From Isoetes taiwanensis (taxonomy: Eukaryota; Streptophyta; Lycopodiopsida; Isoetales; Isoetaceae), in assembly GCA_021234155.1 (NCBI GenBank), contig JAJEKV010000054.1, positions 5,193,962-5,257,961 on the forward strand: a stretch of DNA of 64,000 bases. Direction: 5' to 3'. The notes beneath the pieces are model-generated. The model saw only the letters and a program-made list of their open reading frames with translations. It ran no database searches and was not told where the DNA came from. Positions 13,642-62,176 of this stretch are shown here, piece by piece. Numbering within the stretch: the stretch's first letter is position 1; each line of letters begins with the position of its first letter. The position numbers were made by a program, and so were the translations under genes.

Positions 13642-14890
13642 TTATGTAAAGCATACCAGACCCTTTTGAGCAACTAAATTATGTATTCCTCGACCTGTTT
13701 CTAAGGCTCGAATGTTACCACATGCTTTCAAAGTGCATAGAAATGTCACAGCATCTACAGACACACCCTCCACTTGCATCTGTTGAAATAATGCCAGTGC
13801 TTCTTGATTAAGACCATTTGCAGCATATCCTGCAATTAGTGCATTCCATGACACAACGTCTCGAGCTTGCAGATTGTCAAACACTTTACGTGCATCTGTT
13901 GGTGCACCACAATTAACATACATGTGGAACAAGCTGCTGCAAATTAAAGGATCATTTTCAAGACCCTTTTGTGCAATCTCGGTATGTATTTTCCAGCCCT
14001 CATCTATGGCTCCAGTGCTACCACAAGCTTTTAAGCTGCAAACAAATGTGATAGCATCTCCAGGCACACCATCTTGTTGCATTTGTCTAAAACATTCTAA
14101 TGCTTCTTGATGAAGTCCATTTTCCATGTAACCTGTAATTAGTGTTGTCCAGCAGACGATGTCTCGAGCTGGCACATTATGAAGGACTTCACGTGCCTCT
14201 GCAAACAAGCCACACTTTGCATACATGTCCACCAAGGTGCTACCACACATAGTTGTCCATTTGAAGTTTTTAAAGTCTAATTTCAACATGTATTTCTCTA
14301 CCCTTCCCGATGGCTCTTATACTGCCACACGCTTTCAAGATGCAAACAAATGTGAAAGCATCAGGAATTAAGCCAGTCAGCCGCATCTGTTCAAAACAAT
14401 TCAGTGCTTCCTGACCAAATTTGCCTTCGGAGTACCCAGCAATAAGTACATTCCATAATATAACATCTCGAAATGGCAGGCTGTCAAAGACTAGCTGTGC
14501 CTCTGCAAAGGAACCACATTTCACATACATGTCCACTAAAGCACTGCCAACATGAGGGTCCTTCTCATATCCACTTTCTGCAATCTCTTTGTGGATTTCT
14601 CAGCCCTTGTCTATGGCCCCAATGGTACCACAGGCCTTCAAGCTGCACTTAAATGTAGCAGCATTTGGCAATATGCCTTCTAGTTGCATTTGTCCTAGAC
14701 ATTTCAGTGCTTCTTGACCACCACATGTTCAACATATCCTGCAATTAACGTTGTCCAAGACACAACGTTCCTAACAGGCAAATTGTTGAAAACTTCCTGT
14801 GCCTCTACAAGTGAGCCACATTTTGCATACATGTCAAGCAAAGTACTGCTGACGAAAAGATCACTTTCAACCCTCTGCTTTTGCTGTAGA
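13642..14890 (-). pseudogene. PPR protein (PLS-type repeats), truncated and frameshifted
   Basis: On the minus strand about ten pentatricopeptide repeats are readable, with motifs such as LVDMYAKCGLFAEAREV, VCWTTLITGYMENGLHQEAL, FVCSLKACGS and VVSWNALIAGYAANGLNQEAL. The style is that of the very large plant organelle RNA-editing PPR family in ferns and lycophytes. The protein ends in a stop after KGLVCF at 13642 without E or DYW domains. Breaks include a frame change near 14280, an in-frame TGA near 14600 and a frameshift near 14730. A possible 3' splice site (CTCTACAG) precedes the first readable repeat at about 14890. Gypsy element 2 begins 190 bp further upstream. The PPR identity is certain; I infer a pseudogene. 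Confidence 0.9.
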
Positions 14891-15081: not shown

Positions 15082-15645
15082 TGTTAGTCCTGTGCCTCCT
15101 GGTACAGGACTATTCATGCATACGACGGACCAGGTCAAGCTCAAGGATCCGCAGTCAACCACGGGTCAGCCATCCAAGGCCCCGCAGAAGACCAAGCAGC
15201 AGCCTATCAAGAGGCGCCGCTCAGACAAGTGAGGGGCCGTCACCGCCCGCGTCAGCGTCTGCGTGATTCTAGGCACTTCAAGAGGCACCGCCAACATTCC
15301 TGCAAATCAGGCCTCCTTCCAGGAGTCGGCACCGAGATCAGTCAGAGTGTCTATATTGGGCCAAAGGCCATTGTACTATATATATGAGTAGAGCTAGCAT
15401 ATGAGGGCTAGATGAGTTTTGAGTCTTGTCTCTCTTCAGTCTTCTCTCGATTGCGAGAGCTCATGTATGTTCATCATTGATATCAAGAAGCATATCATTT
15501 TCCTCTCATTGTTCTTTTCTGTTCCATTTTCTTCTTCTTGTTCTTTTCTTGCAAATCCCGTGACATAGTCCCCGGATTCTCTGTTAGATCCAAGGGTCCT
15601 CACAGAGGGCTGTCTTGCGAGGAGTTCGAACCCGGACCCCAAACC
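15082..15645 (+). repeat. 5' LTR of element 2
   Basis: Starts TGTTAGTCC and ends at ...GACCCCAAAC followed by C where the 3' copy has A. It contains the run TACTATATATATGAG at about 15373-15387, a candidate TATA region absent in part from the 3' LTR, and a pyrimidine-rich 3' half. Small differences from the 3' LTR include indels in C runs. The sequence just inside (TTGTGCCGCCGCTGC) is where a primer binding site is expected, but I could not match it confidently to a tRNA. Confidence 0.9.
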
Positions 15646-25589: not shown

Positions 25590-26154
25590 TGTTAGTCCTG
25601 TGCCTCCCTGCATGCGGGACTATTCATGCATACGACGGACCAGGTCAAGCTCAAGGATCCGCAGTCAACCACGGGTCAGCCATCCAAGGCCCCGCAGAAG
25701 ACCAAGCAGCAGCCTATCAAGAGGCGCCGCTCAGACAAGTGAGGGGCCGTCACCGCCCGCGTCAGCGTCTGCGTGATTCTAGGCACTTCAAGAGGCACCG
25801 CCAACATTCCTGCAAATCAGGCCTCCTTCCAGGAGTCGGCACCGAGATCAGTCAGAGTGTCTATATTGGGCCAAAGGCCATTATATATGAGTAGAGCTAG
25901 CATATGAGGGCTAGATGAGTTTTGAGTCTTGTCTCTCTTCAGTCTTCTCTCGATTGCGAGAGCTCATGTATGTTCATCATTGATATCAAGAAGCATATCA
26001 TTTTCCTCTCATTGTTCTTTTCTGTTCCGTTTTCTTCTTCTTGTTCTTTTCTTGCAAATCCCCCGTGACATAGTCCCCCCGGATTCTCCTGTTAGATCCA
26101 AGGGTCCTCACAGAGGGCTGTCTTGTAGGAGTTCCCGAACCCAGACCCCAAACA
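25590..26154 (+). repeat. 3' LTR of element 2
   Basis: Matches 15082-15645 nearly throughout, starts TGTTAGTCC and ends ...CCCCAAACA. It is followed by the target duplication TGTTA. Differences include a shortened TA run near 25880 and changed C-run lengths near 26065-26080. Confidence 0.92.
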
Positions 26155-30061: not shown

Positions 30062-30765
30062 GCTGGAACTTTGTTCAAGGTATTAAAGAAGGCAAGAAGC
30101 TAGTAAGTTCATGCTACAGATTGCTTACCTCCTCAAGTACTTTATCACCTTCTCGAAAATGGCACTTACAGACTTTGCCTTCTCAATGGCAATCCATCTG
30201 GAACCTTGTTTGGTCTAAATATAATCCTCCAAAGGTAAATCTTCTACTTTGGCAGGTGATTCATCGCTCTTTGAGGGTAAATCAGATGGTTTATTGTTTT
30301 AAGCCGGGAGTAAGCCCACTTTGCCCAATGTGTGAGCGGTGCATTGAAACATTGGAGCACTATTTATATTTGTGTGCAGAGCTGAGTAGGTCCTGGCTGC
30401 ATTCTCTTTTTGGAGTATCTTTGGATAGTCAGCACTTTCTTTTGGGTATTTATCCAAATCAGTGGACTGCTTCTAAAAGGATTGCATTTCACATGGCAAA
30501 GTCTTGGCTAATATGGAGTGTATGGAAGCGAAGGCGAAGAAAGGTCTTTTATGATAAGCGTATTTCTTCTCAGGTGGTGCTTCAAGAAATTCGTAAGAAG
30601 TTGTATAATTGCTTTCAGATCTCCAATTGGCCTGATCGTATTAAAATTCCAATATGGAGTGATCATCTAAAAGTGATTGATGCTTCAGGGACATTTCTTA
30701 CTTCTGGAAGTACTTTGTAATATTTTGAGTGTATAATATGAAGTAAAACACGTTCTTCAAAAACA
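30062..30765 (+). mobile_element. 5'-truncated LINE copy (zf-RVT end), copy A
   Basis: A plus-strand frame ending at the stop at 30720 encodes the RT zinc-binding (zf-RVT) tail of a LINE: KLVSSCYRLL, WQSIWNLVWSKYNPPKVNLLLWQ, then CPMCERCIETLEHYLYLC (the Cys/His cluster) and WLIWSVWKRRRRKVFYD. It is close to identical to copy B at 43961-44610. The 3' UTR ends in AAAAAC. AATTATGTA at 30053-30061 and 30766-30774 is a plausible 9-bp target duplication. Everything upstream of the zinc-binding region is missing, as is usual for 5'-truncated retroposons. Confidence 0.8.
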
Positions 30766-30774
30766 AATTATGTA

Positions 30775-33813: not shown

Positions 33814-36206
33814 TGTGACGTTCCACATATTTATATGCTATATGTATAAATACTATGACACATCACCAAGTATGTTTGGATTATAATGGGGCGTTAGGAG
33901 TTAACATTAAAAGGGGTTTATTTTAGCTATACTAAATAATCATAGATTAGATAATTTAATTAAGCTAATTAGGCTAATTAATGTTATTAATTAGCCAATA
34001 GGGGAGCCACCTGGCCCAAATCGATTGGGCCAGAGGAGACTTGCTATTCTAAGGGGGCAAGCTGAGCCTCCACCCCTAACTCCTGCCCCAAATCGATTTG
34101 GGAAAGACTGAAGAAGGGAGGAGCTGCTTGAACACAATAGCTAGTCTTGAATCATGGGTGTTCTTCGTGATAATGGGTCCAGCCAAGAGACATGTTAGTC
34201 TTTAGGTAGTTTATGTTCTAATCTAACCCTTGTATGATTAGATGAATGATTAGACTCTCTTCTATGTTTTATTTGATATTATGATGGATGAATTGAATGT
34301 GATTGTTCTTTCCTTCTGTTCCTCCTGTGTGTATGGGGTTAAAGCGGGGTAGAGACCTAAAAGCTACCTAGGAATAGAGATGCTCCTAGCTAGAACCCTT
34401 TAAAACCCATTAAATGCAGCATATGCACAAGAGCCCTCCTGGCTGTCGATGGTATGGTGTGGTTGAGCACCAGACAAGGAGTATGGTGGTGAAGTGGATG
34501 TGGGACCTTGCCTAGCGTGGCTACAAGGCTCCCTACTGTGGCTAAGTCTATAGTCGGTCATTGCCTATGGGCCGAGTATGGATCTGACATCTCCTAGGTC
34601 GCGGGATAGGTGCCTATAGGGACGTCCTGGGCTCGATGGGTGTGTTGGGGCAGCCTATGGATTTTGGGAGGTTAAAGTCGGGTACGGATGCGTGGTTGCC
34701 TGATGGAACCACGATCCTCTAGCCACCATGGAAGCACCGTGCTCTAGAAAGGATTTTCCCTTTCCTGCCTCATCGGATAGGAGAGATGTAACAGGAGTAG
34801 TCTCATAGGGTGAATCCATGAGATTACATCTCCGGAAGGCTACAACCATGTCATAGCATGATTCATCCTATCTACAAAGTGTGCATAGGAGGTGGGGATG
34901 GAGTGGACTACCCTAGCCATTGTTCTATGACAGCCAACGCCATTGTCATGATTTCGTCTGTTGTTATAGCCTAGGCCGTCGGTTGATTCCCTGGAGTCTG
35001 AGCCTGGGTTAGAGCCTCATTTGATGCATTACATATGTTATATTGTTGTTGGGATGTTACTCGTATTGATGATGGATGGACCACCCTTCGTGGTGGTATG
35101 ATATTATATGTTTTGTGTGCTAGGTGCTAATTTGTACGTATGCTTCCGCTATAGATTCTCTTCTATGTTTTATTTGATATTGATTGTTCTTTCCTTCTGT
35201 TCCTCCTGTGTGTATGGGGTTAAAGGGGGGTAGAGACCTAAAAGCTACCTAGGAATAGAGATGCTCCTAGCTAGAACCCTTTAAAACCCATTAAATGCAG
35301 CCTGCGCACAAGAGCCCTCCTGGCTGTCGATGGTATGGTGTGGCTGAGCACCAGACAAGGAGTATGGTGGTGAAGTGGGTGTGGGACCTCACCTAGCGTG
35401 GCTACAAGGCTCCCTACTGTGGCTAGGTCTATAGTCGGTCATTGCCTATGGGCCGAGTATGGATCTAACACCTCCTAGGTCGCAGGATAGGTGCCTATAG
35501 GGACGTCCTGGGCTCGATGGGTGTGTTGGGGAAGCCTATGGATTTTGAGGGGTTAAAGTCGGGTACGGATGCGTGGTTGCCTGATGGAACCACGATCCTC
35601 TAGCCACCATGGAAGCACCATGCTCTAGAAAGGATTTTCCCTTTCCTGCCTCATCGGATAGGAGAGATGTAACACGGAGTAGTCTCATAGGGTGAATCCA
35701 TGAGATTACATCTCCGGAAGGCTACAACCATATCATAGCGTGATTCATCCTATCTACAAAGTGTGCATAGGAGGTGCGAATGGAGTGGACTACCCTAGCC
35801 ATTGTTCTACGACAGCCAACGCCATTGTCATGATTCCGTCTTTTGTTATTTGGAAGCCTAGGCCATCGGTTGATTCCCTGGAGTCTGAGCCTGGGTTAGA
35901 GCCTCATTTGATGCATTACATATGGGATGTTACTTGTATTGATGATGGATGGACCACCCTTCGTGGTGGTATGATATTATATGTTTTATGTGCTAGGTGC
36001 TAATTTGTACGTATGCTTCCGCTATATAGGGTTCCCATAGAAGGCGTGGGACGAATGACACCTCCCTGTCCTTCACCCGGGCACTTGGCCATCACAAGTG
36101 GTCCGAGGTAGACGGAGGGACTTTCTGTGGTGATGAGGTCACCATGGGAGGGGAATTTCCCGTACGTATACGATGGGAGCATCATATAGGTTCGGGGAGC
36201 GTCACA
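33814..36206 (+). repeat. 3' LTR of chromovirus relic (2.4 kb)
   Basis: Begins TGTGACG directly after a polypurine tract and ends CGTCACA, so the ends are 7-bp inverted repeats. Internal wording (GGGGTAGAGACCTAAAAGCT..., GATGCTCCTAGC, AAAGTGTGCA..GGAG..GGATGGAGTGGACTACCCTA) matches the LTRs of element 3, so the families are related. It contains a large tandem duplication (34252-35152 and 35154-36027) that makes it about 0.8 kb longer than those LTRs. No matching 5' LTR is present in the window. Confidence 0.85.
34252..36027 (+). repeat. 0.9-kb tandem duplication inside the LTR
   Basis: Unit 1 (34252-35152) and unit 2 (35154-36027) are almost identical. Both open with CTCTTCTATGTTTTATTTGATATT and close with GCTTCCGCTATA. 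Unit 2 lacks about 25 bp near its start. Differences include CAG against CACG near 34793 and 35673. Confidence 0.9.
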
Positions 36207-39489
<3,283 letters not shown>

Positions 39490-39490
39490 G

Positions 39491-39502
39491 TGGTATCAGA
39501 GC
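39491..39502 (+). promoter_or_regulatory. primer binding site (tRNA-iMet type)
   Basis: TGGTATCAGAGC, one base after the LTR end, is the standard plant LTR-retrotransposon primer site complementary to the 3' end of initiator methionine tRNA. Confidence 0.92.
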
Positions 39503-39707
39503 ATGATCTTGGCATCCAAGATCGAGCACTGGCCATTTTCCCTTTAGGACTAACAGTAGATTCGAGTCTTGGGGTATAGCCACCCAAGCAAGAGCTTCGA
39601 GCAATTGGGAAAATTTCCAATTTTTGGGTAGATTTTAGCTCCATGATAGATTGCTAGTGAAGTGTAGCATCTTTCCCAACCTAAATTGCCAAAAAAATAG
39701 GCCACCC

Positions 39708-39771
39708 CTCACAGAGTGCGCCCAGCACCATTCGGTTCGCAAACCGATTCCGCCCAGGCGCACTGTGTGAG
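39708..39771. repeat. nested hairpin repeat H1
   Basis: Outer arms CTCACAGAGTGCGCC and GGCGCACTGTGTGAG pair with one mismatch. Inside them TCGGTT and AACCGA pair around CGCA. The whole unit is 64 bp. Confidence 0.9.
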
Positions 39772-39921
39772 TGGTTGACCTCCGTTGACCTAGTTAGGTG
39801 TCCCAATTAATTAAGATAATGGTGTAGTTTGGCTTATTCCCTTAGTTCTGGATAGGTTTGTATATTATAACACTAAGAAACTCCCTGTAAATTGTAAAAT
39901 AGCCGCGGAAACAGTCGACCC

Positions 39922-39985
39922 CTCACAGAGTGCGCCCAGCACCATTCGGTTGGTAATCCGATCTGGCCCAGGCGCACTGTGTGAG
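39922..39985. repeat. nested hairpin repeat H2
   Basis: Same 64-bp unit with the same outer arms, 214 bp downstream of H1; the inner palindrome is imperfect (TCGGTTGGTAATCCGA). Confidence 0.9.
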
Positions 39986-40097
39986 TGGTGGGTGTTTTGG
40001 AGTATGGTGAGCCCAAATGAATGCCTCGTACCTTCGCTAATGCCCTAGTTGTTTTTTCCCCATATGAATTGGGTCCCAACCCTAAATTCCACCTCCC

Positions 40098-40105
40098 TAT
40101 AAATA
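40098..40105 (+). promoter_or_regulatory. TATA box of the H3-like gene
   Basis: TATAAATA in a CT-rich setting, 106 bp before the ATG of the histone-like ORF and about 110 bp after H2. AAAATTAGGG follows closely; the same phrase lies near the second cassette promoter. Confidence 0.6.
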
Positions 40106-40203: not shown

Positions 40204-41396
40204 ATGGCACGGACGTAAAACAGACGCCTCAAGCAAGGTTATGCCACCCGGTTATGTGGCGTAGGGGAGCGAGCCGTCCTAATAAGGCGGGGCGGGAGGC
40301 AAGTGCACATCGGGGAAGAGGAGGGCACCGGTTGAACCACCTAACCCTAACCCCGAAGAGCAGGAGCGGTGTATCGGAGAACCCAGCGGGGAGGCGGGGA
40401 GGCGGGCGAGCTGCGAGGGAGCTTTGAGGGAGATCTTCCGGGGATAACGAAGAACCACAAAGGAACCAAGAAGAAGAAGAGGGAAAGAGAAGAAGGCGAG
40501 CCGAGGAAATCCAAGGGAAAGGCCGGGAGGGAAAAAAGAAGAGCTAAGAAAGAGGAGGGAGGAGAAGGAACGTAAGAGGGAAGAGAGGAGGAAGCGCAAA
40601 GAGGAGCGGAGAGGGTGAGAGCAGAGAAGGTAAGGACCCTGGTGCCGGGCGGAGAAGCCTAAGAAGAAGAAGACACCGCCGCGCAGAAGAACCATACAGA
40701 GCCGGATCTCCGAGAAGCTCCCCATCCCGTCCGACTCAAGAGGAGGGAGCGGGAGGACACGTAACCAGAGAAACTTCGGCCCTTCAAACCCAACACCTGG
40801 GAGGAAGAAGACCCCGCGGGCCAATGCACCGCCTCTATCCTAAATGGCCGTCCCAAGCACCCCCAAATGACAAAGACCAAGAAACCAAGGCCGCAGAGGG
40901 AGTCCTATATACCGGCCGGGACTTGCAAGATCGAAGGAGCTTAAGGAGTATACCGCTGCACATGAAAATGTATGAAGAATACTCCAAATACTACTTAAGA
41001 ACACAGAGTGAAGACCATTGAGGGAGGTCGGCCAACGAAGAAGAACACGTTGAAGAGGCCACTTAGGAGCGATAACCCCTCCGAAGAAGCCGATGAAAAG
41101 ACCGGCGGACTCCAAATTCGCGAGGGCGGCCCAAGAAATCAAGCACTTCCAGCAGAGCTATGGCTTCCTCATTCCCAGAGCCCCCTTTGCACGTTTAACG
41201 AGGGAGATTTTGCAGGAGTTCGACCCATCCAAACGGGTCACGGACGACATGTTGCTCGCGACTGCTAGAGGCGTCGGAGCAGCACATCGTACACTACTTC
41301 GAAGACTCTGTTGCGTGTGCTCAACACGCTAAGAGAGTGACTTGCATGCCCAAGGATATTAGACTAGCTCAGTTTATTAAGAAGGAGGGCCCCTGA
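40204..41396 (+). pseudogene. divergent histone H3-like protein with long basic linker
   Basis: The ATG at 40204 has a strong context (A at -3, G at +4) and starts Met-Ala-Arg-Thr. After a two-base discontinuity it continues Lys-Gln-Thr, reproducing the histone H3 amino terminus including K4. A long Lys/Arg/Glu-rich region follows (for example KPKKKKTPPRRR and GRKKTPRANAPP), broken over several frames. The C-terminal part (41135-41396) is an H3 histone fold: alphaN EIKHFQQSYGFLIPRAPF, alpha1 [11 protein letters not shown], loop 1 of canonical length, alpha2 [15 protein letters not shown], and C-terminus [19 protein letters not shown]3 has FED..LCAIHAKRVTIMPKDIQLA at this last point. One extra A before a CTG at 41261 shifts the frame inside alpha2. 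LIPRAPF recalls CENH3-type histones, but loop 1 is not extended. Normal H3 has 136 residues; here the linker adds roughly 280 codons, or hides introns. It could be a captured plant gene or of large-DNA-virus origin. Confidence 0.8.
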
Positions 41397-41542
41397 ACTA
41401 TTGTAAATGACCTTTTCTTTGGTATAAGTCTATAATTTTGATAAATAAATAAGTCGAATCGAGTTTAAATAGGGTGTATTGCCGAATTCTACATTTAGAA
41501 ATAGCAAAAATCGGAACAAACCAGGCATTTTGATCCCACCCC
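41397..41542 (+). other. 3' flank of the H3-like gene
   Basis: AT-rich sequence with GATAAATAAATAAG near 41437, a plausible polyadenylation region, directly before hairpin H3. Confidence 0.4.
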
Positions 41543-41605
41543 CTCACGAGTGCGCCCCGACCCATTCGGTTTGCAAACCGATCCTACCCTGGCGCACTGT
41601 GTGAG
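41543..41605. repeat. nested hairpin repeat H3
   Basis: Same unit; the left arm has lost one base (CTCACGAGTGCGCC), the right arm GGCGCACTGTGTGAG is intact, and the inner TCGGTTTGCAAACCGA is a perfect 16-bp palindrome. Confidence 0.9.
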
Positions 41606-41745
41606 TGGTTGAGCATGGTTTGGTGCCAAATCTTGCCTAAATGCAGAAAGTAGCTATACTATTCGACCTAACTCATCCTAGTTAGTAGGAATTGACCCCT
41701 AATCTGTCCAAATTGGCCAACGCCGAGTCAAATGGAGCTCCACCC

Positions 41746-41809
41746 CTCACAGAGTGCGCCCAGCACCATTCGGTTCGCAAACCGATTCCACCCTGGCGCA
41801 CTGTGTGAG
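41746..41809. repeat. nested hairpin repeat H4
   Basis: Same 64-bp unit, 203 bp after H3, with the same inner and outer arms as H1. Confidence 0.9.
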
Positions 41810-41950
41810 TGGTCGGACCCCAAACTCCACCACAACTTGCCCAAATAAGGCGAGTAAAGGCTCAATCCTATCTATCTCGATGAGATATCCAGGATTATGT
41901 CTTTAGTTCTCTAGTTTAGCATCATTAGTGACCTAAACAGCAGTCCACCC

Positions 41951-42014
41951 CTCACAGTGCGCTCCAACCAGATTCGGTTTGCAAACCCGATCCCACCTGG
42001 CGCCTTTGTGTGAG
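41951..42014. repeat. nested hairpin repeat H5
   Basis: Same unit, 205 bp after H4, more degenerate: left arm CTCACAGTGCGC, right arm GCGCCTTTGTGTGAG, inner TCGGTTTGCAAACCCGA. Confidence 0.85.
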
Positions 42015-42179
42015 TGGTCTCGTCCGAATTGATCCAAGTTGTCCTTAGACGAACCAAAATCATTGCTTAGGGACCCTTAGGAGCATTTCCAAGCTCAGTT
42101 AGCCTATAAATCATACCTCTAGACCTCGGAAAGTGGGAGAATTGTAAACCTAAAATTTTCCCAAAATTAGGGTTTTGCC

Positions 42180-42186
42180 TATAAAG
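42180..42186 (+). promoter_or_regulatory. TATA box of the second cassette ORF
   Basis: TATAAAG, preceded by AAAATTAGGG and lying 166 bp after H5 and 119 bp before the ATG at 42299. This arrangement mirrors the H3-like gene. Confidence 0.55.
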
Positions 42187-42298: not shown

Positions 42299-43823
42299 AT
42301 GGCCACTTCTTCATTCAAGCGATGGTGCAGCGCCCGCGACTCATCTTGTTTGAAGTGACGACATCGAATCTGTCTTGAGTGTCTTCCCAAGGGAACTTGA
42401 CATTGAGGCCACCATCAACGCCACTCCCTTCTACCGGAACATCATATGCGAGTTCCATGCCAAGATAGGACCCTTTACGGTAGAACTCCCACCTTGTGTA
42501 GGGGGTATTTTGCACCTAACAACGCCCTCAAGTCAGATACGCAAGATATCCCAAATGTAGATAAGTACTTAGAGAATAAAAGATCCAGCCTTCCCAACTA
42601 TATGTCCATCTCTGTCAATAGGAGGAGGTACTTCTCCTATACAAAGCTTTGTAGCCATCTTTCTATCTCTTCGGGGTCAAACCCGGATAGGGGAACCCTC
42701 GGTCAGTGCACCTTTAGAAGTTGAACCCATAGCCATGGCGCAGCGAGAGGAGGAAGCGGATGCGACTCGAGTACGAGCAAGAAGAAGAGGAGGAGGATGA
42801 ATACGAATCAGACCGGAAGACTTGGATCTAGAGCGGGAGAGAGGCAAAGAAGCGAGCATCAGATCCAAAGCTTCGAAGAGGGCTCATGAGCAACAAGAAG
42901 AGCCCCACCACTCGGGCGGGGGCATTACAAGCTTGACACAGGTGTTCATAGCGGGCGAGGCATATCTAACCCTTCCGACATCAAGAATCTTCCACGCGGT
43001 GTCGCAGCAGAGGCCTTAGGGTGGATGAGATTTTACACCTTCTACGACAAGAAGCGGATCTCGACGACTTCATCGATCGAGAAGCCGGGACTTCCCTATC
43101 GGCATAAGAGAAGCCAAGACCTTCACCCGTGAGACATCATCGGATATAGAGGCTTTACGCGGGCATCGGGCGGATGATGGTTTAAAGCGGAATTGCCCTC
43201 GGAGGAGGAGTTCATGGCAATTCAGGAACAAATGGGCATCAAAGGCAAGTCCACATCAACATTATTACCGAGCTTCGCCAACACCCATCCCGGCAAACAT
43301 GGAGGCGATTATCAACCTAAGGAGGCTGGTGCACCAAGACTTCGAGAGAGCTAGAGGAGATACGGTGGATGACTTCGCGGGGAAGGCATGGGGGGCAACT
43401 TCCTCGTCTGCCAAGAAACAGGGGCATGATAAGGCGCCGGATACTACACCGCGTTCTTCTGGGGCGGAAGAATAGCGGTTATTCACCGCCAATTTAGCCC
43501 AAGAGGTGAAGAAGGGGTCTTTATGCTTATCGCCCTCTCAGGGTTTGGACACCATGCACGATTACCTCCAAATATCGACCATGTTGTCCTGATCAAGAGA
43601 GCGATTGCATTGACCATCTTCGACCGCCATCCCTTATAGGCGAGGGTTGGCGATTGGCAATTTTGCGTATACATCGGATAGGAGAATTCAAGACATGGAG
43701 GCAGTACTCCAAGGAGGAACGTCAACAAATATCCTCAGGAACTTAACAGGATCATTAGGTACGGCCCAAGTGAAGAAATTTTTGGAGGACCACCCTGATT
43801 ACCTCAAGAAGTTTGAAGAGTAA
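42299..43823 (+). pseudogene. unrecognised charged protein, second ORF of the cassette
   Basis: Candidate start MATSSFKRWCSARDSS at 42299. Across frame changes the plus strand then reads ESVLSVFPRELDIEATI, NATPFYRNIICEFHAKIG, PNVDKYLENKRSSLPNYM and SVNRRRYFSYTKLCSHLS. A highly charged stretch follows at about 42730-42870 (EEEADATRVRARRR, and EEDEYESDRKTW in another frame). Next come TSLTQVFIAGEAYLTLPTS, HLLRQEADLDDFIDREAG, NMEAIINLRRLVHQDFERA and finally TAQVKKFLEDHPDYLKKFEE with a stop at 43823. The composition is clearly protein-like in pieces, with at least six frame breaks. I do not recognise any domain. It shares promoter layout and hairpins with the H3-like gene, so the two probably form one unit. 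Confidence 0.5.
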
Positions 43824-43946: not shown

Positions 43947-43960
43947 ATTGAATGAAAGCT
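43947..43960. repeat. target site duplication of LINE copy B (left)
   Basis: ATTGAATGAAAGCT is repeated exactly at 44611-44624, on the other side of the LINE. Confidence 0.92.
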
Positions 43961-44610
43961 CCCCCAGTACTTTACCACCTTCTCGAAAATGGCACTTGCA
44001 GACTTTGCCTTCTCAATGGCAATCCATCTGGAACCTTGTTTGGTCTAAATATAATCCTCCAAAGGTAAATGTTCTACTTTGGCAGGTGATTCATCGCTCT
44101 TTGAGAGTTAATGAGATGGTTCATCGCTTTAAGCCGGGAGTAAGCCCACTTTGCCCAATGTGTGAGCAGTGCATTGAAACATTGCAGCACTGTTTATATT
44201 TGTGTGCAGAGCTGAGTAGTCTTAGGTCCTGGTTGCATTCTCTTTTTGGAGTATCTTTGGACAGTCAGCACTTTCTTTTGGGTATTTATCCAAATCAGTG
44301 GACTGCTTCTAAAAGGATTGCATTTCACATGGCAAAGTCTTGGCTAATATGGAGTGTATGGAAGCGAAGGCGAAGAAAGGTCTTTTATGATAAGCATATT
44401 TCTTCTCAGGTGGTGCTTCAAGAAATTCGTAAGAAGTTGTATAATTGCTTTCGGATCTCAATTGGCACGATCATTATTAAACTTCCAATATGGAGTGATC
44501 ATCTAAAAGTGATTGATGCTTCAGGGACATTTCTTATTTCTGGAAGTACTTTGTAATATTTTGAGTGTATAATATGAAGTAAAACACGTTCTTCAAAAAA
44601 AAAAAAAAAA
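43961..44610 (+). mobile_element. 5'-truncated LINE copy B with poly(A) and TSD
   Basis: A 650-bp insertion encoding the zf-RVT tail of a LINE ORF2 (IWNLVWSKYNPPKVNVLLWQ, CPMCEQCIETLQHCLYLC, WLIWSVWKRRRRKVFYD; stop at 44556), followed by 3' UTR and about 16 A. Exact 14-bp flanking duplications show target-primed insertion. It differs from copy A (30062-30765) at few positions and is truncated at nearly the same point, so the two are recent relatives. The insertion lies inside element 3 and is therefore younger than it. Confidence 0.92.
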
Positions 44611-55882: not shown

Positions 55883-56268
55883 CCTAGATGGATCCGAATG
55901 CTACATAGCAGAAATCGAAGCTGGGCACGGATCAGGAACTGGACGAAGGCAGGGGATCATTTGGGGGTTTTAACGTGGGCCGTCCAGATCTGAGATGGAC
56001 GGCCAGGATTCCAAGATCTACATTCAATATAATCCAACGGCCTTAATCAAAAGCCCCAATTTAAGTGGGTTGCTTGGGAGGATGACGTGGCTTCCTCTCG
56101 GCCGTCGGATTTCACAATCTGGACCGTCCAGACGGCGACACCTCGGGTCGGAAACAAGGGGGCAGCTTATATAATTGTATATATATGATTGATATCTCTT
56201 TTTGTATATAATTGCTCCCTCAAATTGTATAAACAAGTAAAACAACGTAACACACAAAACAAGAACTA
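55883..56268. promoter_or_regulatory. intergenic region, possible divergent promoter
   Basis: Between the minus-strand spliced gene and gag of element 3. GC-richer up to 56150 with repeated GACGG/CCGTC wording (GGGCCGTCCAGATCTGAGATGGACGGCC at 55977-56004 could fold), then a TATATAATTGTATATATATG stretch at 56168-56187. GAGGGAG at 43890 and CTCCCTC at 56214 are opposed at the two ends of the 12-kb AT-rich block. Confidence 0.35.
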
Positions 56269-57560
56269 ATGATCAGAATATACTCTAATGTGCATGCAGC
56301 TAGAGTACCTAGAAACCTTGATGAACACAGGCAGCGAGAACAAGGACGTACCCCACCAAGGCGCTTCCAGCCGAGGAATTTGCGCCCAGAATTCGATGCG
56401 GTAACACCGGAGGAGGAGCTATCCCAAATCAGATCTGACATCCACGACATAAGGGCATTGCTAAAGCGTGGGCGCCAGCAGCAGGGGGGAGGACAGACCA
56501 TAATGTGCCCTTGCCGGAAACGCCACCGGGCCGAACAAAGGCAACGAAGGAAGAGAAGCGTAAGGAGAAGATCTCCTAGCGGGATCCTCAAGCTCCAAAC
56601 CGGATACGCACTGCATCGGAAGAGCAGGAAGAAGAGGCACGAGGTCACCTAAGCAGATCCAAACCGCGGATGGGGGACAGATCACGATCGACTACCGTAA
56701 GAAAGTTGACTCCGCCCTTAGTAATGTGTGGAAAGCCAGAAAGTTAGAGCAGTTTTCAGGGGAAAACAGATCCGGAATGGAAGCAGAGGCATGGCTGGAT
56801 GAGATGAGTGAGTATGGCAACGCCTATGGCATGAAAGATAAAGACAAAGGCGTGGTAGCAACAGCAGCAAACCTCAAGGGTGCAGCCTTTAATTTGGTGG
56901 AAGGGGTATGCCAAAGCACATAAAATTTGAAAGCGGGGGACGGTTGCAAATTCGGGAAGTTTGCCAAGGCGTTCAAACATCATTATGTACCAAGAGAACA
57001 TAAGTGCAACATGATGCAGCAGTTTTATAGGCTGCAATAGGGCAACAAATCAGTCCAGAAATACACGGAGGAATTCATGAGACTAAGGCTTTATGTGCCA
57101 AAGTTGAGCGAAAAGCATGCGGTGGAAGGCTATATTGAAGGCTTGAACGATGAGATCCATAAGCTTGTAAGGGCAATAAACCCGAAGTCAGGTCGAGGGC
57201 GAAGCAAAGGCCATAAGTTTGCAAGGGACAGGTCCACAAGAGCGGGCTTCAAAGGCAGTGATATTTCGGGATAAGGGGAAGAGCCGCGGGGGCTATAGCC
57301 CAAGGGCGGCAAGCCCAGTAGCTAGCAAGACGCGAAGACAATTCAAATTATGGGAAGCAAGGCAACACAAGTAGTGGCAAAGGAGGAAAAGCGGGTAAGC
57401 TTCAAGGAGCAAGGAGCCAAGTCTAACTACTCCCAAGCGGTGAGGCAATTTCTGCAGATCCATTCCCAAGGAAAAGAAGCGGGAATGTATAGAGAAGCGG
57501 TTGTGTTTCAGATGCTTCCGGCCGAGGGCATAGGACCAACAACCGCCCCTCGATTATGAA
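56269..57560 (+). pseudogene. gag: Gag of element 3, frameshifted
   Basis: Starts at ATG 56269. The N-terminal part has FDAVTPEEELSQIRSDIHDIRALL and then an Arg/Lys-rich tail. After frame changes the capsid domain reads FSGENRSGMEAEAWLDEMSEY, KGVVATAANLKGAAFNLVEG, then KSVQKYTEEFMRLRLYVP and AVEGYIEGLNDEIHKLV. This is the normal retrotransposon gag domain of the chromovirus group. No complete zinc knuckle could be read between 57280 and 57500. Several stops and shifts make it non-functional as read. Confidence 0.7.
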
Positions 57561-57689
57561 TGCGGCATTGGCGTAGCTGGGATGGGAGACACCATCGGGG
57601 ACTTGAGACGGCGACGGAAGCACCGGGATTACATCCATGGTGAGTGTCACATCTTTGCGGCTATTGATCTGAGGGAATGAAAAGTCAAG

Positions 57690-58260
57690 ATAAAGTGATC
57701 TCAACGGCCGGAAAAGCCCAAGAGAAATCCTTTATAGTATTGATAGACTCGAAGCGGTCATAATTTTGCATCCCCTAGGATGGTAAGCATGTTGAAGTTA
57801 AAGCCGTTAAAGTCCAAGCCCGGGCCGGTGGTGTTAGCCAATGGAGCAATTAGGCATACAAATGGGGAAGAGAATAAACTTCAATGTAGACTTGCGGTGT
57901 TAATGTTGCGTTGGGAGCGGAAGTCATGAATATAGGCAAGTATGATCTCATTATTGGAATGGAATATCTTGGACCAGCGGGAGCAATCATCGATTGTGGG
58001 AAACGTAAAGGTGACCTTAACAACGCCCAGAGGGCAAAGTCATCGAAATCACAGGGTAAAAAAGTAACCCCAATCATGCAATGCATGAGTAGCGAAAAAT
58101 TGCTTAAGTGCATAAGAAAGCGGCCGTGGTGGCCTATCTCCTTAAGCTTGAGCTCCAAGATCGAGAGAGCCGAGAGAAATAAAGAGATCAAAGAATCTAG
58201 CAAGCTTCCCGGGCCAATAGCAAAGTTGATCGAGGAATTTCACGACTTGTTCCCCCGATG
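57690..58260 (+). pseudogene. protease remnant of element 3
   Basis: IVLIDS at about 57735 is where the active-site loop should be, followed by garbled sequence. The end of the domain is clear: GAEVMNIGKYDLIIGMEYLG and AIIDCGKRKGDL. The linker to RT contains SSKIERAERNKEI and AKLIEEFHDLFP, the usual lead-in to gypsy RT. Confidence 0.65.
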
Positions 58261-58289
58261 AGATTAAGCGACTTAAGCCCTATAGAGGA

Positions 58290-59175
58290 GTCGAAAGTGT
58301 GAAATAGCACTTGAACACGGGACGAAGCCTACAAGCAAGCAAGGCACCTTATAGGATGTCAACCGAGGAGTTGACAGAGTTAAAAAGCGATTGCAAGAAT
58401 TGCTAGACTTAGGGTTCATAAGACCTAGTGTCTCCCCGTTCGAGCCCCTATTCTCTTTGTGAAGAAGAAGGATGGGAGCCTTAGGATGTGCATTGATTAC
58501 CGCCCGGTTAAATAAGCACACCATCAAAAATAAGTATGCCTTGCCTAGGTGAGATGACTTAATGGATCGATTTGCGGGGAACAAAGATCTTCTCCAAAAT
58601 AGATCTCGGATCGGGATATCACCAGATTAGGATCAAGGAGGAAGACATTCATAAGACGGCGTCAGGACAAGATATGGGCACTATGAGTTCCACGGTTATG
58701 CCCTTTGGATTGTCTAATGCACCAGCAACATTCATGAGATTAATGAACCACGGCGTCTCCGCGAATTTCTAGATTCCTTCATCATAGTCTTCTTCGATGA
58801 TATCTTGGTTTTTACAGCAAGTCGTGGAGGAGCACGCCCAACACTTGAGGAAGGTGCTTGAAAAGTTAAGAAGGCATCAACTCTTTGGGTTATCGGCGTG
58901 CCGCCGAACGGAAAGAGTGGAGTACTTGGGGCACGTGATCACGCCAGAAGGCATTTCCACGAGACCACGCGAAGATAGAAGCCGCGTGATCGGGCTGGCG
59001 GCACCAAAGAATACGATGAAGTCGGGGAGCTTCCTAGGGCTAGCAGGCTATTATAGAAGATTTGTCAAGAATTTTGCCAAGGTAGCGGCGCCATTAACGG
59101 ATCTCACAAAAGGTGGGAAGATAAAAGATTGGGCAGCCCATTGGCAAAACAAGGCCCGAGAAAGCATTTGAGACG
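58290..59175 (+). pseudogene. pol: reverse transcriptase remnant of element 3
   Basis: Motifs in several frames: [66 protein letters not shown], then IVFFDDILVFT with the catalytic DD at about 58795, EHAQHLRKVLEKLRRHQLF, VEYLGHVITPEGIS and FLGLAGYYRRFVKNFAKVAAPL. This is a chromovirus-type RT with all blocks present but at least four frame breaks. Confidence 0.8.
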
Positions 59176-59960
59176 CTTAAAGGAAGCTTTGACGACGGCG
59201 CCCGGTATTGGTCTTGCCGGATCCGACCAAAGATAAGCTTGTAGCAACCGATGCTAGCGGAGGATAGCGGCAGCGCAGATCCTCATGCAGGAGGAGGAAA
59301 GAGTAGTGGCCTATGATTCCAAGAAGTTGAACGCGCCGAAAGCAAATACTACCTAACGCATGATCAGGAGCTCCGGCTATAGTAAGGGCTTTAAGAATTT
59401 GGAGGCATTATTTATTGGGAAGAAAATTCCAGTTAGACCACAGATCATCAAAGCCTCCAATATATATTTCTGCTTGGCAGCTCCTTAATTTGAGGCAAAG
59501 GAGATGGATGGAATTCTTGGAAGAATATGACTTTGAAATAAGTTATAAGCCGGGGAAGCTCAATGTGGTTGGGCCCCTTTCGGGGAAGCCCTTGGCAACC
59601 AGAATTCATTGTAACGCCATATCAACACTTGTAAGTGAGTTTGGCAAGAAGATTGAGGAAGCATTGCCGACGGACTTCGACTTCAAGGAAGTTTGGGCGA
59701 GCCTTTCCAAAGAGGCCAGGACCGACAAGGAAAGGGAGATGTTCAGGCACTATAAGAAGGAAGGGAACTTGCTATATTATAAAAACAAATTGTGTGTACC
59801 AAAATCTTCGCAAGTTAGAAAGCTTATTTTGAATGATACACACAATAGTCCCATAGCAGGGCATGCAGGGTTCATGAAGACATATTTCAAGATTAGAAGT
59901 CTACTTCTGTCCCACGGAAGTAGACGACCTCGAGAGAAAGGAGGTCATTGAGAGATGCAT
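59176..59960 (+). pseudogene. RNase H and truncated integrase of element 3
   Basis: RNase H pieces VATDAS (first Asp), VVAYDSKKLN, FQLDHRSSKPP and LNLRQRRWMEFLEEYDFEISYKPGKLNVV. The integrase begins with YYKNKLCVPKSSQVRKLIL, HNSPIAGHAGFMKTYFKIR (His pair of the zinc finger) and a degraded VIERCID. No catalytic core (no DFIGP, DRG.QF or AES motif) follows. The integrase core has been deleted, so this copy could not integrate on its own. Confidence 0.75.
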
Positions 59961-60578
59961 TGATAGGAAAAGCACCTTTAGCCCCATATATGCTTTGATA
60001 GGAGGAATCTATCCTTCACGCCCCATATACGGGAAGGATATCCTCCACGTTGGGTAACTAGAGGTGTAGGCATGAGCGGCATATAGGCATATAGGCGCTA
60101 TCTTTTCGGCCAGGATGGGAGAAACATAATCTTCCTATGCCGAAGAGATATGCCTTGCATCCATATAATTGTATTTAATGGGTGGTTCCCTTACAACCAA
60201 CCCTTATAATAATAATTAAATATATACTAACGTAAGGTACATCCCTTGCAGCAACTAGAAGGACCGAAGGGAGGAGGGTAGCGCTACAAGAACTCACAAC
60301 GCATAGTTTTGCCATAATGTGTTGTGAGGAGGCTTAAGGAAGTTTTTTAGTTAAAACCTTAAAGCTATAATTGGCGTTAATTTTTTGTTATAGTCGATTA
60401 TGAAGTAGAGGACGGAAGAGCCTCTCACCATAGTACAATTACTGATAAACTATAAAAATTACACGGGGTGATTAATATAATATGGATATGTAAGTGTTGT
60501 AATTGCGGGATATATGCGGTACCCAAGGTGGGGGGAGGCGGCGTGATCCGAGGGCGCATCAAGTCAAGGTGGGGAGAA
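59961..60578 (+). other. 3' untranslated region and polypurine tract of element 3
   Basis: Noncoding, with CATATAGGCATATAGGCG and a conserved GGTGGTTCCCTTACAACCA shared with the chromovirus relic at 33.46 kb. AAGGTGGGGAGAA at 60566-60578 is the polypurine tract directly against the 3' LTR. Confidence 0.6.
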
Positions 60579-62176
60579 TGTGGCGTTCGGCATAATATAC
60601 GCCCCAATACGTATATTATACTGCCACGTCACACGTACATGTCACAAGTGACATGTACTTGAGAGTAGGACAACGTTGCACCTAGGAGCTAAAGGTTGCA
60701 CCTAGGGGGCAACCTTGGATGTTGGGTATGTAATTAAACATACACAACAAAAGGTTCCTTGTTCATCCATTTCCAAATGGCCTAAAGCCATTTGCCCATG
60801 TGGATGCCCTAACCTAGATAGGGTCTATATAAGGGCTAAAACCCTAGACCCTAGCTCTCCTTTCACTTTGCCAATTAGGGTTTTCTAGAGCTTCCTTTCT
60901 CTTTTCGCAATTAGGGCTTTTCTGGGCCAATTCGCCAAGGTAAGGCTCGAAAATCGCATTGCCAGCTCCGAAAAGTCGGATTTGCACAACAGGTTGCTGA
61001 GTAGCAGCTGTCTTCGGCAAGATCAGGAGCATGGACGCCTTCCAAGGATCAGGAGCAAGCCAAGGAGCAGGTATCTAGTTGTTCTGTTGTGCAAAACCGT
61101 CTTTAGGCATGGCAATATGCCGGGTTAGTATGTTAGATCATCTCTGGAAGCCTTGTAGATCCCTAGATCTGAGACTCTAACGAATGAACCTAACATTGGA
61201 TGTTAAGTAGATAGATTGATATGATTCTCTATCTCTGTTCTGTGATATTGCATGTATTCCACTCTATGATCTCCTTGTTGTGGGAAGGGGGGTAGAGACC
61301 TAAAGGCTGTGTAGAAGATGCTCCTAGCATAGCACCTTAGTTCCCACGTAAATGCGGCCCGTGCACAGGAGCCCACCTGGCTGTGGGTGAAGGGGCAAGG
61401 CCGGTTGATAAGGAGGAACTTGTCTCATCGCGGACTGACCCCTCTGGTAGTAAAGCCTATCGGGGGTCTTTGCTGGCTAGGCTTAATGGCTTGCCACTGC
61501 GTGTGGGCAAGGCATGAGCTCGACACTCGTGGGGTGGTGGATATGACCTTCCAGTGAGTTCAAGTCGAATAAGGGCAAAGTGGCCCTCTAGCTAGCGCTG
61601 CGATGAGCATGGATACCTCTGGAGGAGAGGCAGCTCTCTTCCGCCTCATCGGGGGTTGGGGAGATGCAACCCAACAGAAGTAGCCCCTCCGGCTATTCAC
61701 CCGGCGGGCCTACGGCCAAGTCCCAACACTTTTTCAGCCTACTCGCAAAGTGTGCAGGGGAGGGGCGGATGGAGTGGACTACCCTAAGCCATGTTCTATG
61801 CCGGCCAAATCCATTGCCATGAAGTGCATGCGCAATGAACTCGGAGGCCTAGCCGTCGGTCATCCCCCCTCGAAGTCCGAGCACAGGTAGGATCTTCCCT
61901 TTGTATTATTGTTATGAAGGTATTGGCTGACTCTGTGATGTTGCTATTGTTATGGTGATTATGTTGTATATTATTAGTTGTGCTCACGTTTGTTTGTTAC
62001 GCTTCGCAGATAGGTCGATCCGATGGAAGGCGGATGAATGACACATCCACTCTTCCCTTGCTGGCTCTGCCCCATGGGAGTGGAGTGGTGGATGGCCCTT
62101 GTCGCGCATTTGCCGGGGAATGCTCCTCCTTCGAGTGCGATGGCGGGCATCGTGATAAGGAGTAGGGGGCGTCACA
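60579..62176 (+). repeat. 3' LTR of element 3
   Basis: Begins TGTGGCGTTCGG and ends GGGCGTCACA. Collinear with the 5' LTR over its full length, with many small indels and CTG/ACG-type differences. TATATAAGG lies at 60826-60834. Confidence 0.92.

Follow-up and report, generated by a model that had tools for sequence, protein, structure and literature searches.

Can an LTR retrotransposon carry a core histone as a gene of its own and, if so, of what use might that histone be to it? The question is raised by a 64,000-nt stretch of Isoetes taiwanensis DNA (contig JAJEKV010000054.1, positions 5,193,962-5,257,961 of the forward strand, assembly GCA_021234155.1), the whole of which is referred to here as the window. 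An initial annotation had described in it a divergent, tail-bearing histone H3 whose basic linker would span roughly 280 codons, lying between the primer binding site (39491) and gag (~56.2 kb) of an LTR retrotransposon; the layout is confirmed and the same anatomy is found in other copies. The host, there called a fern, is a lycophyte.

The window element and its histone reading frame

The window element is a decayed Ty3 LTR retrotransposon in which the H3 reading frame (hereafter, retro-H3) sits between the primer binding site and gag. Its features, with copy counts referring to the 20 fetched copies defined below, are as follows.

37893..39489, + strand: 5′ LTR; 92.8% identity to the 3′ LTR by blastn; LTR sequence in 20/20 copies
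39491..39502, + strand: primer binding site TGGTATCAGAGC, from sequence; exact match in the first 2.6 kb of 11/20 copies
39702..39775, + strand: leader hairpin 1, a 74-nt imperfect palindrome; fold z -6.6; repeat family D3
39916..39989, + strand: leader hairpin 2; fold z -4.9
40098..40105, + strand: TATAAATA box, 106 bp upstream of the H3 ATG
40204..41396, + strand: retro-H3 ORF, broken in the window; H3 tail start, charged linker, H3 fold
41090..41393, + strand: H3 histone fold, frame-shifted near 41260; PF00125 in both pieces, PDB H3
41537..41609, + strand: hairpin 3; fold z -5.5
41740..41813, + strand: hairpin 4; fold z -5.9
41945..42019, + strand: hairpin 5; fold z -2.3, weak
42180..42185, + strand: TATAAA box, 119 bp upstream of ORF-X; at -115 to -121 in 21/21 sequences
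42299..43823, + strand: ORF-X, located after the H3 ORF and before gag; broken, acidic, spanning ~500 codons
43873..56173, no strand assigned: nested 12.3-kb insertion, not in the block common to the other copies
56174..60578, + strand: gag-pol, decayed, the 3′ part of pol unrecognisable in the window
60579..62176, + strand: 3′ LTR, paired with the 5′ LTR, then (CT)n

The start of the 5′ LTR is approximate, falling within a (CT)n microsatellite, and both LTRs are bordered by (CT)n. As the two alignments of the LTR pair disagree (55 mismatches plus many gaps by blastn versus a K2P of 0.082 by mafft), no age is given for the element. The primer binding site TGGTATCAGAGC is of the initiator-Met tRNA type. 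The nested insertion splits the 5′ block from gag-pol, and 18 of the 20 copies run from 43872-like to ~56174-like sequence inside the fetched stretch. Rfam and tRNA scans of the 64-kb window gave no match.

Several other repeats lie in the window. The same 0.6-kb coding-like sequence, by eye the 3′ part of a non-LTR retrotransposon, occurs at 30129-30767 and at 43959-44603 (95-98% identical), the second copy close to one end of the nested insertion. Two direct copies ~0.88 kb apart (34284-36026, 95-98% alike) contain a 79-base stretch ~82% like the LTR of the window element and are perhaps related LTRs. The near-identical repeats at 15107-15559 and 25617-26062 (96-100%, separated by ~10.5 kb) enclose gag/pol-like frames and belong to another LTR element, probably younger. 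Frames at 13645-14599 (- strand) resemble, by eye, a pentatricopeptide repeat protein.

The window copy of retro-H3 is dead. At 40204 (+) it reads ATG GCA CGG ACG TAA, that is MART and then a stop, followed by AAA CAG ACG (KQT) in a shifted frame, exactly the interrupted tail that the initial annotation had seen; a further frame break lies near 41260, there are several breaks overall, and a TGA at 41394-41396 terminates the fold. Because of the frame shift, the fold was queried as two separate pieces, which matched the Pfam Histone family PF00125 with E = 5.4e-07 and 4.9e-09 (30.3 and 36.9 bits, against a Pfam cut-off of 26.4 bits) and PDB H3 chains with best E = 5.6e-05 and 2.1e-10, respectively. 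The histone fold proposed at ~41090-41393 is therefore real, and as the best PDB matches of the element histone are H3, it is a core histone H3 fold. An uninterrupted homologue of the window ORF, P0001 (397 aa), was found elsewhere in the genome.

Copies across the genome and selection on the H3 ORF

The genome searched comprised 1,658,258,908 bases in 1110 contigs; the published assembly is given as 1658.30 Mb in 204 scaffolds and 909 contigs, built from Nanopore reads polished with short reads (PMC8566536, assembly description), and errors of assembly may account for some of the frame breaks seen in repeats. With a 361-base H3 probe the best 40 of 471 candidates were scored, all at ≥89% identity and with the window included, and 20 of the 39 non-window places (ranks 2-21 by similarity to the window) were fetched. 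These copies therefore lean to close relatives and are all H3-selected. The order LTR, leader, H3 ORF, ORF-X is the same in every one of them, some with insertions or small deletions, and gag-like sequence follows within the fetched stretch in 18. An uninterrupted retro-H3 ORF of 390-397 aa is present in four (L015, L020, L027 and L028) and is interrupted in the other 16. The intact frames share an exact H3 tail start (MARTKQT), a charged linker of ~280 codons and a C-terminal H3 fold; since the linker is open in them, an intron between tail and fold was rejected. P0001 is the L027 ORF, which matches PF00125 with E = 4.7e-23 and has a linker in which K, R and E are abundant.

When P0001 was used as a protein query against the genome, the 104 candidates that were scored gave at least 110 matches, among which 20 are stop-free over residues 1 to at least 395, some of these as low as 56% identical; nine stop-free full-length copies of this family, termed family A, fall at 56-72% identity to P0001. 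First-look candidate counts in these searches are loose numbers, not copy numbers, and the 48431 obtained for P0001 are probably inflated by its low-complexity linker. An RT probe, independent of H3, gave 3946 candidates, of which the best 40 were scored (window included): for 25 of them a match from the H3 list lies upstream, on the same strand and no more than 25 kb away. The distance is 5.0-5.9 kb for 20 of the 25 and 24 kb for one, where the H3 probably belongs to a neighbouring copy. Among the 15 places without an H3-list match, C1028 has a P0001 match ~5.2 kb upstream. The initial annotation had asked whether other full-length copies lack the histone segment; they carry it throughout the H3-selected set, and the RT-probe places bear this out in part.

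In family A copies outside the window, Pfam searches identify Retrotrans_gag and Ty3_capsid in gag and, in pol, the Ty3 order of RVT_1, RNase H, integrase zinc-binding H2C2 and rve, ending in one copy (L067) with an SH3-like Tf2-1 domain and then a chromodomain (Chromo E = 7.8e-11, above the Pfam cut-off). The element is a Ty3/gypsy LTR retrotransposon by its LTR pair, primer binding site, gag and RT-RNase H-INT order, and family A is a chromovirus by its integrase C-terminal chromodomain in the one copy examined. It resembles plant chromoviruses in Gag, in the Ty3 order of RT-RNase H-INT and in the two domains at the pol end, but differs from them in having two extra ORFs 5′ of gag, one of them a histone H3.

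Pooled comparisons show strong purifying selection on the H3 core. Over 40 codons from its first half in family A (20/20 copies) the pooled dN/dS is 0.009, and over 37 C-terminal H3 codons (19/20 copies) it is 0.22; the segments were chosen by fuzzy protein match with at most ~33% substitutions and no stops, so intact segments are favoured. Over an 87-codon core in 14 open copies, pN/pS is 0.13, with 15, 8 and 29 variable columns at the three codon positions. For the whole ORF, the six pairs of the four uninterrupted copies give dN/dS of 0.17-0.44, which indicates that the linker is weakly constrained, less so than the core; some nonsynonymous differences in family A resemble local compensated frame shifts. 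A gag segment, with a pooled dN/dS of 0.25 (15/20 copies), is selected too, so that selection shows the protein to be used but not its purpose. The values for the H3 core, far below 1, together with the intact ORFs reject a host pseudogene in neutral decay, which the initial annotation had offered as an alternative.

Several features around the H3 ORF recur in the other copies. In a survey of 21 sequences including the window, the TATAAATA box lies 103-109 bp upstream of the H3 ATG in all 20 with a located ATG (that of L024 was not located), and an AATAAA follows the H3 stop in the same 20, in an AT-rich stretch where chance occurrence is possible. The five 74-nt hairpins of the window, two 5′ and three 3′ of the H3 ORF, fold better than shuffled sequences, the fifth weakly, and a pattern search found 2 to 5 in each other copy; these palindromes are possible regulatory or packaging signals. 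ORF-X (loci L011-L028) carries an acidic tract, EEEEEDEYESDPEDLDLE, and its own TATA box. Three pieces of it gave no Pfam match, and it is fully open in 0/20 fetched copies, the longest piece being 333 aa; pooled dN/dS in three segments is 0.02, 0.22 and 0.18 (10/20, 7/20 and 15/20 copies). That ORF-X might act in the manner of a histone chaperone is speculation.

A second family and the identity of the histone

A search of the genome with canonical H3 yielded 9022 candidates, and among the best 150, which were scored, 15 are host H3 (96-98%) and 135 are matches at 71-86% identity. Two from the latter group whose ORFs were read end to end, L059 and L060, encode proteins of 409 and 412 aa in which an N-terminal region of ~300 aa without a Pfam match is followed by a near-canonical H3 fold that shares 86% identity with host H3 (PF00125 E = 4.3e-41); L065 and L066, known from partial reads, are similar but broken. 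With the protein of this family B as the query, at least 102 matches were obtained from 11952 candidates at 75-100% identity, and of the 102 listed, 68 are without a stop and 61 are both full-length and without a stop. Its retroelement context was probed in three intervals past the L059 ORF (2.5-3.0, 4.2-4.7 and 5.9-6.4 kb downstream). The first piece is gag-like by eye, with no tblastn match at 1e-3. The second contains part of an RT; it shares 61% identity with the pol of family A (L043) and matches window 57968-58485, with no match to an RT model in Pfam. The third contains part of an integrase (Integrase_H2C2 E = 3.2e-18); it shares 75% identity with that of family A and matches window 59748-59900. 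In the ORF-X slot, family B has a different ORF start, MAAAADLAAWYHDGEK. Between L059 and L060 the H3 domain shows 14 synonymous and no nonsynonymous differences, and the full ORF has a dN/dS of 0.12. These data show family B to be a second, related family whose H3 ORF, with a different N-terminus, lies upstream of pol.

As a control, H4 was searched in the same genome: 69 candidates gave 43 matches. Of these, 16 span the full length at 99-100%, and the others are partial or diverged (one at 58% over residues 6-103). H4 is without such amplification, which is thus particular to H3 as against H4.

It is extremely improbable that retro-H3 is a captured host H3 copied along as a functionless passenger. 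LTR elements do transduce host genes (PMC7264820), and most of the fetched copies are interrupted; against this stand the dN/dS of 0.009-0.22 in the H3 segments, the frames that stay open at 56-70% protein identity, and the placement of the H3 ORF 5′ of pol in both families, between which the RT and integrase pieces share 61% and 75% identity. Gene conversion with host H3 as the source of the apparent selection is disfavoured, since family A is ~50% divergent. The retro-H3 ORF is shown to be an integral, selected gene of these elements.

Large DNA viruses can encode histones, and the initial annotation had also considered a fragment of such a virus, now endogenous, with the LTR element inserted into or beside it. 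The separate, TATA-led ORFs do look gene-like, but the H3 ORF follows the 5′ LTR in 20/20 fetched copies, a scan of viral contigs with P0001 (reaching close relatives only) found none, and the family B H3 ORF also has a retroelement pol downstream. With retroelement sequence around the ORF in 20 copies and a negative viral-contig scan, an origin from a DNA virus is refuted for practical purposes, and the probability left to it is negligible.

To establish which H3 the element carries, its core was compared with host H3 (L064) and with provisional reference sequences of two plant CENH3s and CENP-A. The family A core is 51% identical to host H3, 44-45% to the plant CENH3s and 41% to CENP-A, and its loop 1 has the length of host H3, without an insertion and two residues shorter than in the CENH3 references. 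The initial annotation had read the LIPRAPF wording as CENH3-like, and it does resemble the CENH3 motif LIPxAPF. The phylogeny called for there gave that reading some support, as FastTree (~100 residues) groups family A with the two plant CENH3s at 0.86 local support, yet on a long branch and with the higher identity to host H3. On loop 1 and identity, CENH3 identity was rejected for family A, and a centromeric mimic is a highly improbable account of it. The family B H3, judged on its sequence, is clearly canonical-like.

In standard H3 numbering, P0001 keeps R83, H113, K115, R116, T118, K122 and D123. Family A changes R49 to Q and R63 to P, both of which we take to be nucleosome contacts, and L071, the most divergent copy, is by eye altered at more core positions, including R72 to L, R83 to K and K122 to R; octamer formation is therefore not assured.

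Residue 9 of the tail and the possible use of an element-borne H3

The tail of P0001 reads MARTKQTARKV. Three stop-free divergent copies (L068, L069 and L070), picked by hand from the nine at 56-72% and 56, 62 and 64% identical overall, read MARTKQTARMV, MARTKQTVRIV and MARTKQTTRIV, so that ARTKQT is exact in all three and residue 9 is M or I in 3/3 divergent N-termini sampled. In 10 of the 20 close copies the protein begins MARTKQTARK; in the remaining 10 a frame shift or a change precedes residue 9. The family A tail thus keeps ARTKQT (with K4) and R8, has V for S10 in P0001 and the three divergent copies, and diverges from H3 past residue 9; in family B the ARTKQT tail is replaced by another region. 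As K9 is retained in the subfamily of the window, any reading based on K9M or K9I is limited to its divergent relatives.

H3K9 methylation is a transposon-silencing mark, and K9I probably acts like K9M. In fission yeast, H3K9M has a dominant blocking effect on H3K9 methylation and traps the Clr4 methyltransferase (PMC5030085); the term K9I does not occur in that text. With confidence somewhat short of even, we infer from the sequences that retro-H3 may counter H3K9-based silencing, through unsilenceable nucleosomes or trapped methyltransferases. Retro-H3 would be made from its own transcript, as the conserved TATA box and the AATAAA past the stop suggest, would join host H4 through its conserved H3 core, and would enter chromatin or act on its writers with a tail unable to bear the normal silencing code. 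Its nucleosomes, or tails of the K9M/K9I type that trap H3K9 methyltransferases, would then shield the element from silencing by H3K9 methylation, in trans or at the element's own copies. A point against the proposal is that a decoy peptide by itself could do without a conserved fold. Family B is without the ARTKQT tail, and a single mechanism for both families is therefore an extrapolation. A stronger form of the proposal, in which an H3 with K9M/K9I or a replaced tail is a natural oncohistone-like weapon that poisons H3K9 methylation or builds unsilenceable nucleosomes, read by the element's own type II chromodomain, is conceivable but on the unlikely side.

The chromodomain also bears on an alternative, integration targeting, in which retro-H3, placed in chosen chromatin or in the pre-integration complex, might be recognised by the type II chromodomain as a private insertion address. 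The chromodomain pol end (L067), L049 and the intact retro-H3 (L027) belong, judged by position, to the same copy. This domain lacks the first aromatic-cage residue, which by eye makes it type II, a class described in PMC6317226 as lacking identified partners; the exact ARTKQT of the three divergent tails would also suit such an address. Residue 9 is variable, however, and the methyl-lysine pocket looks incomplete, and we regard targeting as unlikely. Less probable again, and in our judgement improbable, is nucleoprotein packaging, in which the charged linker and H3 fold would condense element cDNA in particles or after nuclear entry. The K/R/E-rich linker and the analogy to the histones encoded by giant DNA viruses point that way; an H3 without co-encoded H4, H2A and H2B would, however, need host partners, and packaging leaves the exact ARTKQT tail unexplained.

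Counteraction of H3K9-based silencing is the reading that we tentatively prefer. The element itself has partial counterparts in known systems. Virus-encoded histones occur in giant viruses, and as H4 in bracoviruses, and are likewise cases of a selfish element with its own core histone; those are DNA viruses, whereas the quillwort element shows H3 only, with the exact start of the host tail. The dominant-negative H3K9M of fission yeast has the K9-to-M change of one divergent copy, but it was engineered in a host gene (PMC5030085), whereas here the change is natural, element-borne and known from sequence, and the window subfamily has K9.

Extra ORFs 5′ of gag as such are already known (PMC3485330, PMC7264820 and PMC6317226), and in one survey 21.4% of plant extra ORFs were similar to known domain types, itemised in its supplement (PMC6317226). 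The ORF0 of rice Retrosat2, RIRE3 and RIRE8 is, like retro-H3, an extra ORF kept by a family between the 5′ LTR and gag-pol, but it encodes hydrolase-like enzymes inferred by modelling, its role in transposition is called unclear, and the word histone occurs 0 times in the text (PMC3485330). LTR elements of bdelloid rotifers similarly maintain captured non-gag-pol ORFs within families; their ORF3, however, encodes an esterase, a DEDDy exonuclease or env and is placed after gag and pol, again with 0 occurrences of histone in the text (PMC5408684). Searches of the open-access PMC literature, covering the top 10-15 titles where results were many, turned up no retroelement-encoded histone, and the paper on the Isoetes genome does not use the word histone in its main text (PMC8566536). 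The I. taiwanensis repeat library was purged of repeats with BLASTx matches to plant proteins (PMC8566536, main text), so histone-bearing elements may be hidden from it and may sit among the annotated genes.

A core histone encoded by a mobile element and kept by purifying selection would give a direct way into an arms race over chromatin, with tail mimicry set against H3K9-based silencing. Retro-H3 is also a candidate for what the orphan type II chromodomains of chromoviruses bind, and, to judge from its divergent tails, it may offer a candidate natural system for inhibition of the K9M type.
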